Source: Fusobacteriota bacterium (GTDB taxonomy: Bacteria > Fusobacteriota > Fusobacteriia > JAPLKR01). From it: a DNA stretch of 20,659 nucleotides. A program made the position numbers and the translations under genes. Below the pieces are notes generated by a model, which did no database searches, had not been told where the DNA came from, and was given only the letters and a program-made list of their open reading frames with translations. The stretch lies in the NCBI GenBank assembly GCA_026387965.1, contig JAPLKR010000041.1, forward strand, positions 1 to 20,659. Reading direction: 5' to 3'. Shown here in pieces: positions 6,165 through 15,153 of the stretch (positions within the stretch are counted from its first letter, which is position 1; the number at the start of each line of letters is the position of its first letter).

Positions 6165-6515
6165 TTAAATACTTTTTTTGGCAACTTCAACAAGTTTTGA
6201 AAATTCAGCTTGATTTGAGTATGCAAGTTCTGCTAATACTTTTCTATCAAGTTCAATTCCAGCTTTTTTAAGTCCAAACATAAATTTAGAATAAGAAAGT
6301 CCGCTCATTCTTGCTCCAGCATTAATACGCATAATCCAAAGCTCACGCATTTTTCTTTGACGCTGTTTTCTATCTCTTGTTGAAAAAGTCATTGCTTTTA
6401 CAACTGCTTGTTTTGCTGATTTGTAAGTGATGCTCATTGCACCTCTATACCCTTTAGCTTGATCAATTATTTTCTTATGTTTACGGTGTCTTGCCAATCC
6501 GTTTGTTACTCTCAT
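6165..6515 (-). CDS. rplT: 50S ribosomal protein L20
   Basis: L20 is an early-binding protein of the large ribosomal subunit, needed for 50S assembly, and in many bacteria it also represses its own operon. The 116-residue product shows the family pattern throughout: a very basic N-terminus (VTNGLARHRKHKKI), the AKGYRG box, RDRKQRQRKMRELWI and the C-terminal globular part LSYSKFMFGLKKAGIELDRK. Length is standard (about 117-119). The start at 6515 follows AGGAGG. It is the last gene of infC-rpmI-rplT and is followed by a terminator. Confidence 0.97.
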   Translation of the reverse strand: MRVTNGLARHRKHKKIIDQAKGYRGAMSITYKSAKQAVVKAMTFSTRDRKQRQRKMRELWIMRINAGARMSGLSYSKFMFGLKKAGIELDRKVLAELAYSNQAEFSKLVEVAKKSI

Positions 6516-6555: not shown

Positions 6556-6762
6556 CTAACGTCCTACTTTATTTGCTAATAATTTGCTAATCATTTTGAT
6601 TTTACCTGGATCAATTGTATGGTCAAGATTAAGTCTGTTTTTTCTAGCTCTTGATTTTTTAGTTAAAATGTGACTTTTTCCTGTAGGTTTTACAACATAT
6701 TTACCTGTTCCAGTAATCTTGATTCTTTTTTTTGCTCCTGAATGCGTTTTCATTTTAGGCAT
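6556..6762 (-). CDS. rpmI: 50S ribosomal protein L35
   Basis: L35 is a small basic protein of the large ribosomal subunit. The 68-residue product begins with the typical [21 protein letters not shown] and has the [13 protein letters not shown] segment seen across the family; family members are usually about 64-66 residues, so this one is only slightly long. AGGAGG sits 8 nt before the ATG. It lies between infC and rplT as in most bacteria, with short gaps (about 30-40 nt). Confidence 0.97.
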
Positions 6763-6793
6763 TGTATTTTCCTCCTATGTAATATTAAAACTC

Positions 6794-7309
6794 TTATTTA
6801 ACCGCTTTTGGTGAAATTATAAGGTGTTTTATAGATTCTCTATAGTTCTTCTCTACTATAGCTTTATCATCAAAATACTCAACAACTTGATCAAGTATTC
6901 TAAGACCAATATCTTCGTGTGAACGTTCACGACCATAAAGAATTAGACTCACTTTTACTTTGTTCGTCTCTTTCTCTAAAAACTTTTCAATGTTTTTGAT
7001 TTTAGTATCCAAATCATGCTTATCTATTCTAGATTTGAATTTCACTTCTTTAATTACCGTAATCTTTTGATTTTTCTTAGATTCTTTATCACGCTTCTCT
7101 TTATCAAAGCGGTATTTCCCATAATCTAAAATCTTACATACCACAGGTTTAGCATTGAATGCAATTTCAACTAAATCCATCTGCGCTTCTTCAGCTAATC
7201 TCTTCGCTTCTATAATAGAAACAACTCCGATTTGTTCGCCATCCTTACCAACTAAACGAACTTCGTTTTCCGTAATTTGTTCATTAATTCTTGTATTATC
7301 TTTAGCCAA
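6794..7309 (-). CDS. infC: Translation initiation factor IF-3
   Basis: IF-3 binds the 30S subunit, prevents premature joining of 50S and proofreads the initiator tRNA and start codon. The product of about 171 residues has the N-terminal domain (NTRINEQITENEVRLVGKDG) joined by a basic linker (DKEKRDKESKKNQK) to the C-terminal domain (VKEVKFKSRIDKHDLDTKI). The open frame continues upstream through an unrelated leader; the start is placed at the TTG codon at 7309 because GGGAGG lies just before it and the conserved N-terminus begins there. Non-ATG starts are common for infC (AUU in E. coli), since IF-3 discriminates against them and can control itself. It heads infC-rpmI-rplT and has a terminator hairpin immediately upstream. 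Confidence 0.95.
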   Translation of the reverse strand: MAKDNTRINEQITENEVRLVGKDGEQIGVVSIIEAKRLAEEAQMDLVEIAFNAKPVVCKILDYGKYRFDKEKRDKESKKNQKITVIKEVKFKSRIDKHDLDTKIKNIEKFLEKETNKVKVSLILYGRERSHEDIGLRILDQVVEYFDDKAIVEKNYRESIKHLIISPKAVK

Positions 7310-7459
7310 ATTTCCTCCCGAAAATAAAAAAATGTAGAGAAACAGTTCTCTACATAAATAAAACAATACACAATGCAATTTGCATTCATATATCTTATTT
7401 AGTAACCCTATACACACACGTGTTAAGGTGAGAATTCTGTTTAATTCTTCTTTATAAAA
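7310..7459 (-). promoter_or_regulatory. Leader region of infC-rpmI-rplT, possible L20-type attenuator
   Basis: The 150 nt between tRNA-Arg and infC contain a near-palindrome AATGCAAATTGCATT (about 7374-7388) and then a terminator hairpin placed directly before the infC ribosome binding site. A possible weak promoter (TTAACA, 16 bp, TACTAA) lies in the upstream part. In Bacillus and relatives the same operon is controlled by L20 binding to its leader and triggering termination. I infer the same kind of control from position and architecture; I could not match the L20-binding structure itself. Confidence 0.4.
7324..7355 (-). terminator. Terminator hairpin between tRNA-Arg and infC
   Basis: Perfect 10-bp stem ATGTAGAGAA / TTCTCTACAT with a 4-nt loop, followed by TTTTTTATTTT on the minus strand. 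It ends about 6 nt before the infC ribosome binding site. It may end the tRNA operon transcript, act as an attenuator for infC, or both. Confidence 0.8.
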
Positions 7460-7536
7460 TGGCGTACCCGGAGGGAGTCGAACCCCCAACCTCTTGATCC
7501 GTAGTCAAGTGCTCTATCCAATTGAGCTACGGGTAC
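7460..7536 (-). tRNA. tRNA-Arg(ACG)
   Basis: A full cloverleaf of 77 nt with encoded CCA: acceptor GTACCCG / CGGGTAC, D arm GCTC/GAGC, anticodon stem CTTGA/TCAAG with loop CTACGGA (anticodon ACG), T loop TTCGACT. A34 in this tRNA is the standard bacterial target of the deaminase TadA, which turns it to inosine so that CGU, CGC and CGA can be read. The gene's first 23 nt are also the last codons of tadA. Confidence 0.97.
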
Positions 7537-7993
7537 ATCGATTTTCTTGACGTCTTTTTTTGAAAAAATTTTGTAAAAGTTCTTTACACATTTTTTCTTC
7601 AACGCCGAACTCAACATCAACATGATGATTAAGTTTTTTTTCTTGTACAATATTTAAAATTGTACCACACGCTCCAGTTTTATCGTTTTTTGCACCGATG
7701 ACAACCTTTGCAATTCGAGCTAGTACTAATGCTCCCGAACACATGCTACACGGTTCAAGCGTTACATAAAGCACTGTGTCGTAAAGCCATTTACTCTTCA
7801 TTTTTTTTTGAGCCTTTTTCATAGTCAAAATTTCAGCATGAGCAAGTGAATCGCTCCACGTCTCAACTAAATTATGTGCTTTTGAAATTACTCTACCATA
7901 TTGGACTAAAACGGCACCGACGGGGATTTCTCCCTTTTCAAATGCTTTTTTAGCCTCTTTTAATGCAAGTTGCATGAATTTTATATCACTCAA
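7514..7993 (-). CDS. tadA: tRNA adenosine(34) deaminase TadA
   Basis: TadA is a zinc-dependent deaminase that converts adenosine 34 of tRNA-Arg(ACG) to inosine. The 159-residue product has the zinc-ligand motifs HAE (52-54, Glu as proton shuttle) and PCSMC (81-85), preceded by GEIPVGAVLV, typical of the family and of usual length. The start is the TTG at 7993 because GAGGTG lies 4-5 nt upstream; the next ATG (7975) lacks a ribosome binding site and would trim the N-terminus. The gene sits between tRNA-Ser(GCU) and tRNA-Arg(ACG) with no internal promoter visible, so it is probably co-transcribed with the tRNAs. Oddly, its last seven sense codons and its TAG stop lie inside the tRNA-Arg gene, so the enzyme's tail is encoded by its own substrate's gene. 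Confidence 0.95.
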   Translation of the reverse strand: MSDIKFMQLALKEAKKAFEKGEIPVGAVLVQYGRVISKAHNLVETWSDSLAHAEILTMKKAQKKMKSKWLYDTVLYVTLEPCSMCSGALVLARIAKVVIGAKNDKTGACGTILNIVQEKKLNHHVDVEFGVEEKMCKELLQNFFKKRRQENRCTRSSIG

Positions 7994-8012
7994 GCTTCAC
8001 CTCACTTAAAAG

Positions 8013-8105
8013 TGGCGGAGAGAGAGGGATTTGAACCCTCGATCCGGTTTAACCCAGATGTTCCCTTAGCAGGGGAGTGCCTTCGGCCAGCTCAGCCATC
8101 TCTCC
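8013..8105 (-). tRNA. tRNA-Ser(GCU)
   Basis: A 93-nt class II tRNA with encoded CCA. Acceptor GGAGAGA pairs with TCTCTCC, the anticodon loop CTGCTAA gives anticodon GCT, and there is the long variable arm typical of serine tRNAs. It reads AGC and AGU. Confidence 0.96.
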
Positions 8106-8112
8106 AAAAAAA

Positions 8113-8198
8113 TGGCGGAAGAACTCGGACTCGAACCGAGAAGTCCTTACGGACGGCAGTTTTCAAGACTGCTGCACTACCAATTGTGCGATTCTTCC
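8113..8198 (-). tRNA. tRNA-Ser(UGA)
   Basis: An 86-nt class II tRNA with encoded CCA: acceptor GGAAGAA / TTCTTCC, anticodon stem GCAGT/ACTGC with loop CTTGAAA (anticodon TGA), and a short variable-arm stem GTCC/GGAC. It is the first gene of the tRNA-Ser, tRNA-Ser, tadA, tRNA-Arg unit. Confidence 0.96.
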
Positions 8199-8210
8199 AC
8201 GACAATAATA

Positions 8211-8239
8211 ATTGTAACATATTTTTCGTTTTACGTCAA
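8211..8239 (-). promoter_or_regulatory. Promoter of the tRNA-Ser/tadA/tRNA-Arg unit
   Basis: TTGACG (8239-8234) and TACAAT (8216-8211) on the minus strand are separated by 17 bp, about 12 nt before the 5' end of tRNA-Ser(UGA). Confidence 0.8.
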
Positions 8240-8293
8240 CTTTTTTTTCTTGTATGCTCAACATGATCAATGGTGTTACTCGCTAGAATACCT

Positions 8294-8629
8294 TTAAAGT
8301 TTTAACTTAATTTTCTTGCCTTTACTATCCGTAAACACACCTAATGCTATCATGATCAAATCAATGAGCGTCCAAATGCCTAATCCACCTAAAGTGATTA
8401 GCATGAGTATCCCCGTCCCTGTTTTCCCTACATAAAATCGATGAATTCCAATTCCCCCTAAAAAAACAACTAAAACAAACGTTATCAGCCAATTATATTC
8501 CGAAATATCTTTCTCTTCTACTTCTGATTCCTCTTTTATATAGAGGGGGTGCCCGCATTTAGGACAAGTAATTGCCCTCATTGAGACCTTTTTGCCGCAT
8601 ATTGGACATTGTATCATATTTTCGTACAT
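8294..8629 (-). CDS. Zinc-ribbon and TM2-domain membrane protein
   Basis: A small membrane protein (about 111 residues) of unknown function. The N-terminus is a zinc ribbon with two CxxC pairs (CPICGKK...CPKCGHP), then an acidic linker (EESEVEEKD), then a TM2 domain: two hydrophobic helices around the signature GGIGIHRFYVGKTGTGI, followed by a basic tail. Such zinc-ribbon/TM2 proteins are widespread and poorly understood. Two consecutive ATGs (8632 and 8629) are possible; the second has the better spacing to AGGAG. That ribosome binding site overlaps the TAG stop of the upstream outer-membrane protein gene, so the two are probably translated in a coupled way from the promoter at 9318-9326. 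No clear terminator follows the stop. Confidence 0.85.
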   Translation of the reverse strand: MYENMIQCPICGKKVSMRAITCPKCGHPLYIKEESEVEEKDISEYNWLITFVLVVFLGGIGIHRFYVGKTGTGILMLITLGGLGIWTLIDLIMIALGVFTDSKGKKIKLKL

Positions 8630-8637
8630 CATATCTC

Positions 8638-9288
8638 CTATTCAAAATAATATCGTACTCCACCACCAAGAGCATTTGAACCTGTACCATATCCGCCATT
8701 ATTGTAAGTTCCATATGCTCCTGAACGATGATGTATATCCACAAAATACTGTATATAAGGGGTTTGGGGATTAGCAACGGTTACTTCAAGCACCAATAGA
8801 TTTAAAAGCTGTCTTGTATTGTTAGATCCGTAATTGGCCTTAAGATTCTCAACGTCTGGAACTGATGACATATACGAGATCCCTTCTCCGACCGACATGG
8901 TTGTTGCAAGAAAATCATTCCAAGGAAATCCAATCCATCTAAAATTCAAATATACACTGCCTTCATAGGCTGGTCCTGTACCTTGCGACCAATAAGTTCC
9001 CATAATGGTTGGCTCTAGTTTTGCCCCTGTAAAAGCAAAAATTTTTGAAAGTTCGTTATCGCTATCTAATCTATAAGACAAAGCAATACTCGTTTGCGTT
9101 GAATTTAAAGCTTGAAGGTCTTGAAGTGTCATCGTTTGACCCAAATCATTCATATAGACTTGATTAAAACTTGCCGCTAACGCCCATTTGTACTCTGTTT
9201 CACTTCCATACATCGAGTACTGAAAATCACTTGCAAAAGAACATGCACTTCCTAGTATAACCAGGCTTCCTAACACATAGCTTTTTAT
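8638..9288 (-). CDS. Outer-membrane beta-barrel protein, PagL/acyloxyacyl-hydrolase-like
   Basis: The product (about 216 residues) has a signal peptide ending ...GSACSFA and a mature part of alternating aromatic and polar residues, fitting a small outer-membrane barrel. The C-terminal part carries HHRSG followed by a Gly/Asn/Ser-rich turn and GGGVRYYFE, resembling PagL-type lipid A deacylases and related barrel proteins, whose catalytic site includes HxS. I cannot identify the expected acidic partner with confidence, so enzymatic activity is only a possibility. The only in-frame canonical start (GTG 9276) lies 18 nt from AGGAGG and leaves a signal peptide without basic residues. An in-frame ATA at 9288 has ideal spacing (6 nt) and gives MKSYVLGSL..., so I place the start there. 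It is followed by the coupled TM2 gene. Confidence 0.6.
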   Translation of the reverse strand: MKSYVLGSLVILGSACSFASDFQYSMYGSETEYKWALAASFNQVYMNDLGQTMTLQDLQALNSTQTSIALSYRLDSDNELSKIFAFTGAKLEPTIMGTYWSQGTGPAYEGSVYLNFRWIGFPWNDFLATTMSVGEGISYMSSVPDVENLKANYGSNNTRQLLNLLVLEVTVANPQTPYIQYFVDIHHRSGAYGTYNNGGYGTGSNALGGGVRYYFE

Positions 9289-11591: not shown

Positions 11592-12420
11592 TTAAAAACT
11601 ATAAGGCACAATCAGTTGCGACGAGAGAACGTCCTTTGGTTTTTCAACCATTGGATTATTGTATACTTGAGGAGGTAGTTGAAAAACTTGAAATATCAGG
11701 AACAAGTTAACCCACTGATTCGCAACATAATCGCATGTTATTCCTTCATATGGAGCACCTGAATCTGATGCTGTATAACTATAAAGTCCAGAATTAACGC
11801 TTTCATTTTGTGAAATTCCAAAATAATAGGTGTTAAGTTTTTGATTATCATATTGCACTCCAATCTCGGGTTTAATCGTAAAAGTATGATTTTCATTTCC
11901 AGAAATTAGAGGAATATCATATTTTATACGACCCATAAATCCTGAGGAGTTTCCTGTGATATCATTTTGAGCACTCACTGCAAAAAAAACATATGGTGTT
12001 AAAAGTTTCTCTTCCTCCTCTAGCATTACAGGCATATAGCGATTATTCAGCTGCTGCATCGCTGATGTATATCCCCAAACTTTAAATTATAAAACATCGG
12101 AAATAGCCGTCCTGCAATACTTGTTTCTGTGTGTGGTGTCCTAATTAACTCAAGTCTGCCGTAGTTGTCATAAAAATAGAATTTAGGACTGCGGTATATT
12201 ACGCCGGAAGTATCCAAAGAAACCGTTTTGATATTACAATAGGGATTTGGTGTAAGAAAAGCTTGCGCCCCTATATTGCATAGATTTTCCGGGGCAATCA
12301 TATTATTAAACATCATTTGAAGCGTGGTTAACATAGCTCTCCCATTTAAAAAAAGAGAAATCAAAACACACATAAGTCCCATTATATTATATTATATTAT
12401 ATTATATATTTCTTTTTCAT
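11592..12420 (-). pseudogene. Broken MipA/OmpV-type outer-membrane protein, tandem copy of 12435-13259
   Basis: This is a clear paralog of the gene just upstream, but it is split into two frames. The first part (about 12047-12382) matches the paralog around FLTPNPYCN versus FVSPNPYCN, and the second (11592-12059) from MQQLNNR to the C-terminal ...YSF. Two lesions are visible. The natural start is ATG 12420 (AAAGGG before it, MKKKYI after it), but five TATAA repeats introduce a stop at codon 8. Between 12061 and 12078 there are two extra bases, best explained by ATAT in place of AT. Removing four pentamers and one AT restores a single frame with a good signal peptide. The rest of the frame is intact, so inactivation looks recent or reversible. 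It follows its paralog by 14 nt. Confidence 0.8.
12381..12410 (-). repeat. Pentanucleotide tandem repeat (TATAA), five copies
   Basis: Five perfect TATAA units on the minus strand, flanked by AATA and TGGGAC, inside the signal-peptide region of the broken MipA-type gene. The array also contains overlapping TATAAT sequences that resemble -10 boxes. Confidence 0.9.
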
Positions 12421-12434
12421 AATATTCCCTTTTT

Positions 12435-13259
12435 TTAAATGCTGTACGTCATAATCAACTCCGAAGATAAAATGGTTTTCGCTTTAACCACCATCGGACT
12501 ATCAAATACGGCATTTGGAAGTTGATTTGCTTGAAATTCTAAATAAAAATTTAATCTTTGATTTGCAACATATACAAAATTTAACGCCTCATACGGTCCC
12601 CAAGAATCAGTCGGAGCATACTGAGAAAGCCCGGAATCCATACTTTCTGTCTGAGAAATTCCAAAGTAATAGTTATTTAGTGTTGAGCTATCATATTGAA
12701 GCCCTACTTCTGGTTCAATCATAAAAGTATTGCTTTTACTCCCAAAAAATACGGGTGCACCGTACTGAAGTGTCGCCATAAATCCCTTTGAAGTTCCTGT
12801 TATATCGTTTTCGCCACTCGCCTCAAATATTCCATAGGACGTGATCCAGTTCTCCTGAAGTCCAAGCAGTATAGACATCGAACGATTATTAAGCTGTTGC
12901 ATCGCCCACGAATTTCCATATTTAGAATTATAAGAAACAGGGGAAATTTGTCCAACAATCTCAGTGGAAAGACTCTTATTTCCAAATAGTTCATAACTTC
13001 CATAAGTATCATAAAAATCAAACTTCTGGCTCGTATAAGTTACTGCTGGAAGTACCCATGATACTGAGCGGGTATTGCAATAGGGATTTGGTGACACAAA
13101 TGCTTGAACACCTAATCCCCATGGATTCTTTGGAGCCATCACATTATTTATGAGCTCTTGCTCCGATAGTTGTTTAGGAATATATTGATGAACATTGACA
13201 GAAAAAGCAAAGCATGGCACCGAAATTATTAGTATTATTGTAGCATATATCTTATTCAT
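12435..13259 (-). CDS. MipA/OmpV family outer-membrane protein
   Basis: The 274-residue product has a signal peptide (MNKIYATIILIISVPCFA) and a barrel-like body. The C-terminal third shows the pattern known from the MipA/OmpV family (MltA-interacting/scaffold or osmoregulated outer-membrane proteins): YYFGISQTES..SGLSQY, a GPYEALN strand, RLNFYLEF and then FDSPMVVKAKTILSSELIMTYS. Assignment rests on this motif order and is tentative as to function. The start at 13259 is chosen for AAAGGAG 5 nt upstream and the signal peptide; six upstream codons in the same frame have no support. The last residue is Ile rather than the usual Phe. Upstream lies tRNA-Gly with a terminator 5 nt before this ribosome binding site and no visible promoter of its own; the broken copy follows 14 nt downstream. 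Confidence 0.75.
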   Translation of the reverse strand: MNKIYATIILIISVPCFAFSVNVHQYIPKQLSEQELINNVMAPKNPWGLGVQAFVSPNPYCNTRSVSWVLPAVTYTSQKFDFYDTYGSYELFGNKSLSTEIVGQISPVSYNSKYGNSWAMQQLNNRSMSILLGLQENWITSYGIFEASGENDITGTSKGFMATLQYGAPVFFGSKSNTFMIEPEVGLQYDSSTLNNYYFGISQTESMDSGLSQYAPTDSWGPYEALNFVYVANQRLNFYLEFQANQLPNAVFDSPMVVKAKTILSSELIMTYSI

Positions 13260-13274
13260 CGCAGCTCCTTTAAG

Positions 13275-13303
13275 CAAAAAAATAGAGCTTCAGCTCTATT
13301 TTT
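13275..13303 (-). terminator. Terminator between tRNA-Gly and the MipA-type gene
   Basis: An 8-bp perfect stem AATAGAGC / GCTCTATT with a 4-nt loop, flanked by A- and T-runs so that it could work in either direction. On the minus strand its T-run ends about 5 nt before AAGGAG of the MipA-type gene. Confidence 0.75.
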
Positions 13304-13998: not shown

Positions 13999-15153
13999 AT
14001 GAAGAAAAAAATTGTTATTGCTGGAATAATTTTAGCACTATCATCCCTAACGTTTGCAGGTACAGGTGTATCAAAAGAAAGTCAAACAAATGTTGTTGGA
14101 ATGAAATCTCGATATTTCAATACTTTCTATGAAATGTGGGCAAACGATTATAGTACTTTTAATCAAATACTTCTTCAGCCTGTATTAGGCGCAACTCCAA
14201 GTATAAATACTGTTTCACTTGGGTTTATGGAATGGCAAATGTCGCCAACAACAAACCAATTTGCTATATATTCGGGGTTAAATCAAAAAGGGCAGCTTAT
14301 CAGTGAATGGTTATCTCCGCAAAACCCTGCGGTTGGTGGAAGTATTGATCCAGAATATTATGCTTGGACTTATGCTAAATTTCAAAATCCTGGTGTAAAT
14401 ATGTTGCTTTCATTTGGAGGATATACTTATGGAGGTATCTGGGACCAACTAGCTAATGCAAATCAATCTCAAATAGAATCATTAGCACAGCTTTTAGTCA
14501 CTACTTGTACGACAAATTATCCTGTATATAATTCATGGACATGGTTCAATCAAACAGCAGCTACTCAAGTAGGAACGGTAACATTAAATGGAATTGATTT
14601 CGATTTCGAACCTACAACTGGTGGCACAACTGGCGTTACAGAGGTAATTACTCAAGCTCAAATAAACGCATTATCTTCTCTTATTGCAGACATTCATGCA
14701 CTCAACGAAAATCTTATGATTACCATCGATGGAAGATCATGTTCTGCTGATGGTCCAGGACTTACTTCAAGCATGGGGCCTAATGGAACAGCGCCCGCAA
14801 CTGCAGGAGAATTAGTTCCATTACTTCAAAGTCCTGTTATGGCTGATGTTGCTTATGTAAATGTGATGGGATATGATTCGGGAAGTACCTATTATGATCA
14901 AACGGGATATCAACAATCATTAGCAAACTATGCTCATTATATTGGGGCATCAAAAACTGTCGCTGGGCTTTCCGCATGTTCACAATATCTAGGTATTACA
15001 GATTCTATCTCTACGCTTGAAACTAAAGCAAACTATATTTCTTCATATGGATATGCTGGCGCAAGTTTTTGGACTCTTGGACCAGATCTAATAGCGGTAG
15101 CTCAAAGCACACCTATGTCAACCTACACAACTGATATTGCTAATAATTTATAA
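13999..15153 (+). CDS. Secreted glycoside hydrolase family 18 (chitinase-like) protein
   Basis: GH18 enzymes cleave beta-1,4 linkages in chitin or related N-acetylglucosamine polymers. The 384-residue product has a signal peptide (MKKKIVIAGIILALSSLTFA) and is otherwise a single catalytic domain. The family landmarks are in order: SFGG (138-141) for the SxGG strand, NGIDFDFE (197-204) for the DGxDxDxE active-site motif with Glu204 as the acid, MGYD (290-293) and the late-barrel Trp in GASFWTLG (358). The first Asp of the motif is Asn197, while the second, third and Glu are kept, so activity is plausible but may be altered; a lectin-like role is the alternative. No carbohydrate-binding module is seen. 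AAAGGAG sits 11 nt before the ATG. It has its own promoter and terminator and is the only clear plus-strand gene here, which may hint at separate acquisition. Confidence 0.88.
   Translation: MKKKIVIAGIILALSSLTFAGTGVSKESQTNVVGMKSRYFNTFYEMWANDYSTFNQILLQPVLGATPSINTVSLGFMEWQMSPTTNQFAIYSGLNQKGQLISEWLSPQNPAVGGSIDPEYYAWTYAKFQNPGVNMLLSFGGYTYGGIWDQLANANQSQIESLAQLLVTTCTTNYPVYNSWTWFNQTAATQVGTVTLNGIDFDFEPTTGGTTGVTEVITQAQINALSSLIADIHALNENLMITIDGRSCSADGPGLTSSMGPNGTAPATAGELVPLLQSPVMADVAYVNVMGYDSGSTYYDQTGYQQSLANYAHYIGASKTVAGLSACSQYLGITDSISTLETKANYISSYGYAGASFWTLGPDLIAVAQSTPMSTYTTDIANNL

Follow-up and report, generated by a model that had tools for sequence, protein, structure and literature searches.

The window, the whole 20,659-nt stretch analyzed here, belongs to a draft fusobacterial assembly of 1.79 Mb in 141 contigs. 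On its reverse strand it carries two tRNA-Ser genes, the gene tadA for tRNA adenosine(34) deaminase, a tRNA-Arg(ACG) gene and the translation genes infC, rpmI and rplT, in this order and closely packed (Table 1). Elsewhere in the window, adjoining ORFs at 11592-13277 resemble paralogous secreted or outer-membrane proteins, and a glycosyl hydrolase family 18 protein (PF00704, E 2.9e-11) is encoded on the forward strand at 13999-15153.

Table 1 Features of the tRNA-tadA-infC region, in order of transcription.
Feature	Position	Strand	Details
Best promoter-like site of the unit	8211..8239	-	TTGACG-17-TACAAT, extended TG; consensus scan 10/12
tRNA-Ser(TGA)	8113..8198	-	ARAGORN, Rfam
tRNA-Ser(GCT)	8013..8105	-	ARAGORN, Rfam; 3' end 19 nt before the tadA start codon
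tadA, tRNA adenosine(34) deaminase	7514..7993	-	159 aa; TTG start, TAG stop at 7516-7514; NF008113
tadA/tRNA-Arg(ACG) overlap	7514..7536	-	23 nt; ARAGORN/Rfam tRNA 5' end and ORF end
tRNA-Arg(ACG)	7460..7536	-	ARAGORN; Rfam RF00005, 67.6 bits; CCA encoded at 7462-7460
L20-leader-like attenuator of infC-rpmI-rplT	7320..7458	-	RF00558, 35.6 bits, E 8.2e-6, full length 1-127
Terminator/attenuator hairpin before infC	7332..7355	-	Sole terminator-like site in 6700-8700
infC (IF-3)	6794..7312	-	TIGR00168, 182.9 bits
rpmI	6556-6762	-	ORF downstream of infC, named from sequence alone
rplT	6165-6515	-	ORF downstream of infC, named from sequence alone

With its 3' end, tadA overlaps the 5' end of tRNA-Arg(ACG) on the same strand by exactly 23 nt, reaching through the D-loop of the tRNA. 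ARAGORN and Rfam place the tRNA 5' end at the same nucleotide (7536), and the gene has a regular tRNA fold with its ACG anticodon and encoded CCA. The shared bases comprise the last two bases of a TGT (Cys) codon, the codons ACC CGT AGC TCA ATT GGA, and the TAG stop, which occupies nucleotides 21-23 of the tRNA within the D-loop. The original prediction had placed seven sense codons and the TAG in these 23 nt; the length and the stop stand, while the sense codons amount to six whole ones and two-thirds of a seventh. The further claim that the tRNA sequence dictates the tail of the protein is borne out by the exact overlap. Stops occur in two of the three frames of tRNA-Arg(ACG), in one at nucleotide 8 and in the other at nucleotides 21 and 30; for any upstream gene deprived of its own stop, the chance of ending inside the tRNA is thus about 2/3. 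Across the genome's 35 tRNAs we found no other convincing overlap between a CDS and a tRNA 5' end, the other gaps measuring at least 3 nt. A 68-aa ORF crossing two clustered tRNAs of the genome was judged spurious and was not counted as an overlap.

By its sequence features the protein is a TadA. It scores 160.4 bits against NF008113, above the cut-off of 150, and aligns to solved TadA structures (7cph, 1wwr, 2b3j). The HAE and PCxxC zinc/catalytic motifs (H52 A53 E54 and P81 C82 S83 M84 C85) are intact and invariant in 26 aligned sequences, several of which were found through an EPCSMCSG pattern, so that conservation of this stretch is partly selected. The closest homologue found, at 55% identity, comes from a metagenome-assembled genome labelled Clostridium; a search for viral relatives found none. 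The residues encoded in the overlap, CTRSSIG, lie past the complete TadA domain and its FFxxxR end, the point at which most homologues stop; they form a tail that is not conserved and is probably dispensable for TadA. With the substrate tRNA present, deamination of A34 in tRNA-Arg(ACG) is predicted. The overlapped gene is the only one with an ACG anticodon among the genome's 35 tRNA genes, which supports the earlier suggestion, likewise drawn from sequence, that tadA overlaps the gene for its own substrate. The genome's Arg anticodons are ACG, TCG, TCT and CCT, and the CDSs of the window use the Arg codons CGT 51, CGC 11, CGA 17, CGG 2, AGA 89 and AGG 7 times.

The arrangement of signals suggests that the two tRNA-Ser genes, tadA and tRNA-Arg are likely co-transcribed. 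The best promoter-like site lies just upstream of tRNA-Ser(TGA), and in one relative a sigma70-like sequence, read by eye, stands at the same place. The spacer between tRNA-Ser(GCT) and tadA, CTTTTAAGTGAGGTGAAGC, contains a GAGGTG motif resembling a ribosome-binding site. As expected of a mixed tRNA-mRNA operon, the consensus scan returned no promoter-like site directly before tRNA-Arg and no terminator-like site between tadA and tRNA-Arg. All other promoter-scan matches of the region are at chance level, including a weak site inside tadA (7828, 9/12) that could serve tRNA-Arg and counts against the reading as a single unit. Co-transcription from the upstream promoter had originally been put forward for checking; the promoter-like site, the lack of one before the tRNA and a terminator-like site after it all agree with this, and the transcript itself is our reading of these signals. 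The L20-leader-like element begins about 1 nt past the tRNA-Arg CCA, directly before infC. Its score lies below the RF00558 gathering score (35.6 vs 58.7 bits), which the leader of one relative exceeds.

We compared the locus with 97 other Fusobacteriota genomes, all of the same class. The window genome is the sole member of its genus and family in this set, so the comparison is one between families of the class. FtsZ from the window's contig is 59-63% identical to that of the best class members and at most 50% identical to that of genomes outside the class; in a tree it groups with the class (support 100/99) on a branch whose exact position is unsettled. This placement, together with a tRNA cassette common to relatives, ruled out a contaminant contig.

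TadA above the NF008113 cut-off occurs in one of the 98 Fusobacteriota genomes, that of the window. The cut-off is strict, as no more than 5 of the 14 control genomes attain it, and absence from the other 97 is therefore argued from the scores as well: none of their matches exceeds 94.5 bits, all being partial or of RibD length, whereas Bacillota matches that resemble TadA and fall just short of the cut-off lie at about 125 to 149 bits. The best sub-cut-off match in the phylum (94.5 bits), considered as a possible TadA, covers residues 6-110 only and resembles a guanine/guanosine-type deaminase, and was rejected. Most of the TadA-less relatives whose tRNA loci were read possess tRNA-Arg(ACG).

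Many relatives retain the cassette tRNA-Ser(TGA)-tRNA-Ser(GCT)-tRNA-Arg(ACG), in several cases directly before infC. In most of them a hairpin and T-run separate tRNA-Ser(GCT) from tRNA-Arg, with a T-run only in some members of one family; by-eye inspection for a tadA remnant between tRNA-Ser and tRNA-Arg showed hairpins and T-runs only. At ten loci a hairpin and T-run precede tRNA-Arg(ACG), mostly with little room for a promoter, as if transcription reached tRNA-Arg there by passing through a terminator. In each of the seven relatives inspected, a promoter scoring 11-12/12 stands after tRNA-Arg and before the L20 leader. The window genome lacks both the terminator-like hairpin before tRNA-Arg and the promoter after it. 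Instead, tadA fills the gap between the Ser and Arg tRNAs, from 19 nt after tRNA-Ser(GCT) to 23 nt into tRNA-Arg. Since no promoter precedes the infC leader (7313-7459), unlike in the seven relatives, infC may depend on the promoter of the tRNA operon.

Neighbourhoods of the same kind occur outside the phylum. We assembled 177 distinct tadA loci from samples of Omnitrophota, Bacillota, Poribacteria and Planctomycetota and from 60 loci of a homologue search. Omnitrophota, Poribacteria and Planctomycetota were picked because their first matches showed tRNAs, and the best 30 loci per phylum were read, so the following fractions are not unbiased rates. A tRNA lies within 300 nt of tadA in 108 of the 177 loci. 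tRNA-Arg(ACG) is immediately upstream in 71, and a tRNA is downstream in 98, among which tRNA-Arg(ACG) appears once, 43 nt away in a planctomycete; the family of this planctomycete, represented by two genomes, yielded no further case. In 8 of these 98 loci tadA has its stop within the downstream tRNA, which is tRNA-Ser in all eight and never the substrate of TadA. A rough comparison of tadA with other CDSs adjoining tRNAs showed no difference in overlap rate (10/75 vs 2/36, Fisher p = 0.33; ten tadA overlaps rather than eight because its ORF rule differs). At one locus, a 318-aa ORF other than tadA ends 10 nt inside tRNA-Arg(ACG).

Taken together, we consider it probable that the locus is a compacted unit of tRNA-Ser, tRNA-Ser, tadA, tRNA-Arg and infC-rpmI-rplT, in which tadA is a passenger and tRNA-Arg serves as processing punctuation. 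On this reading tadA would have travelled in an ancient tRNA-Ser/tRNA-Arg cluster that became compacted and joined to the infC operon in the window's fusobacterial lineage. A single promoter upstream of tRNA-Ser(TGA) probably drives the two tRNA-Ser genes, tadA, tRNA-Arg(ACG) and the L20-regulated infC-rpmI-rplT. Loss of tadA's own stop would have let the frame read on into the abutting tRNA as far as its first in-frame stop, the TAG in the D-loop. The window's order, tadA then tRNA-Arg, counts against this explanation, as tRNA-Arg then tadA is usual elsewhere.

Ribosomes would translate tadA on unprocessed transcripts. Processing of polycistronic precursors by RNase P is established (PMC10731613), and a cut at 7536/7537 would leave a stop-less tadA piece that yields no more properly terminated protein; the loss of the stop, which the original prediction had foreseen, thus follows from known RNase P activity and would be a by-product rather than a demonstrated regulation. 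How much TadA is made would then depend on how long tRNA processing lags behind transcription, with no need for dedicated control, and cutting out tRNA-Arg would generate the tadA mRNA's 3' end as well as the 5' end of the infC leader. A low or variable supply of TadA may be tolerable, since B. subtilis can dispense with the enzyme (PMC10454642) and many Mollicutes lack it (PMC3711424).

How tadA came to its place is a separate matter, and we hold acquisition by transfer to be a tentative possibility: the gene would have been inserted between tRNA-Ser(GCT) and tRNA-Arg and its 3' end trimmed at the junction. As this concerns origin, it is compatible with compaction of the unit. Its presence above the cut-off in a single genome of the phylum and a best homologue in a MAG labelled Clostridium speak for transfer. 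However, the same Ser and Arg tRNA neighbours accompany tadA in Poribacteria, Omnitrophota, Bacillota and Planctomycetota, a shared neighbourhood that fits loss elsewhere in the phylum and favours retention here over gain, nor did any trace of a mobile element catch the eye at the locus.

It appears unlikely that the overlap is a regulatory device in which each transcript gives either a mature tRNA-Arg or a complete tadA mRNA and the level of TadA or tRNA feeds back on processing. Such a device would suit the exact overlap with the genome's sole substrate tRNA gene, the recurrence of tadA beside tRNA-Arg(ACG) across phyla and the plausible co-transcription. An overlap serving this purpose should be specific to the substrate tRNA across relatives, yet the eight other cases all involve tRNA-Ser, and no sequence element for feedback was seen at the locus. 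TadA is, moreover, non-essential in B. subtilis (PMC10454642), and other Fusobacteriota seemingly do without it. The link between enzyme and substrate levels that had been proposed thus loses ground to the tRNA-Ser overlaps elsewhere, a tail beyond the conserved domain and the lack of any excess of overlaps; most loci of the other phyla have tadA stopping before the tRNA, the pattern that the same proposal had named as the mark of a local accident. A substrate-coupled switch is possible but unsupported; as the tRNAs overlapped elsewhere are not TadA substrates, close packing together with loss of the original stop accounts for the overlap, and no special switch is needed. A reading of tRNA-Arg(ACG) as a regulated processing hinge is likewise unlikely; on it, cutting out the tRNA would at once remove the tadA stop and free the 5' end of the L20 leader, tying tRNA-Arg maturation to the output of TadA and of IF3, L20 and L35. 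That the true stop of tadA is missing through an error of assembly or sequencing is very improbable: the draft assembly is fragmented and a single contig carries the locus, but the tRNA is intact, the frame is open and eight like overlaps exist in other phyla.

Bacteria have mixed tRNA-mRNA operons such as E. coli thrU-tyrU-glyT-thrT-tufB. The window's unit resembles them in that protein and tRNA genes seemingly share one RNase P-cut transcript; unlike in the E. coli operon, the tRNA contains the stop of the protein gene, which would therefore be lost upon cleavage. In mitochondrial transcripts, tRNAs act as punctuation: genes abut or overlap them, and their excision defines mRNA ends. The same would hold for the window, where a gene overlaps a tRNA whose excision would define mRNA ends, with the difference that the case is bacterial and the stop of tadA would be lost, not completed by polyadenylation. 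The closest parallels are the tadA loci of Poribacteria, Omnitrophota, Bacillota and Planctomycetota, which have the same tRNA neighbours and sometimes a stop inside the next tRNA; there, unlike in the window, tadA usually follows tRNA-Arg(ACG) and the overlaps run into tRNA-Ser. The open-licence PubMed Central articles searched make no mention of tadA loss in Fusobacteria, of CDS/tRNA overlap or of tadA beside its substrate tRNA.

The overlap offers a clean natural case in which processing of a tRNA must compete for the same bases with translation of a protein gene, and tadA adjoins the gene for its own substrate tRNA in several phyla. The window's relatives resemble the Mollicutes without TadA (PMC3711424), in that tRNA-Arg(ACG) is kept and tRNA-Arg(TCG) is found in some members, whereas the window genome retains tadA. 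In nearly all of the sampled Fusobacteriota, tRNA-Arg(ACG) seems to persist with no recognizable TadA; A34 of this tRNA is presumably unmodified in them, and they should therefore decode CGN codons with an unmodified A34.
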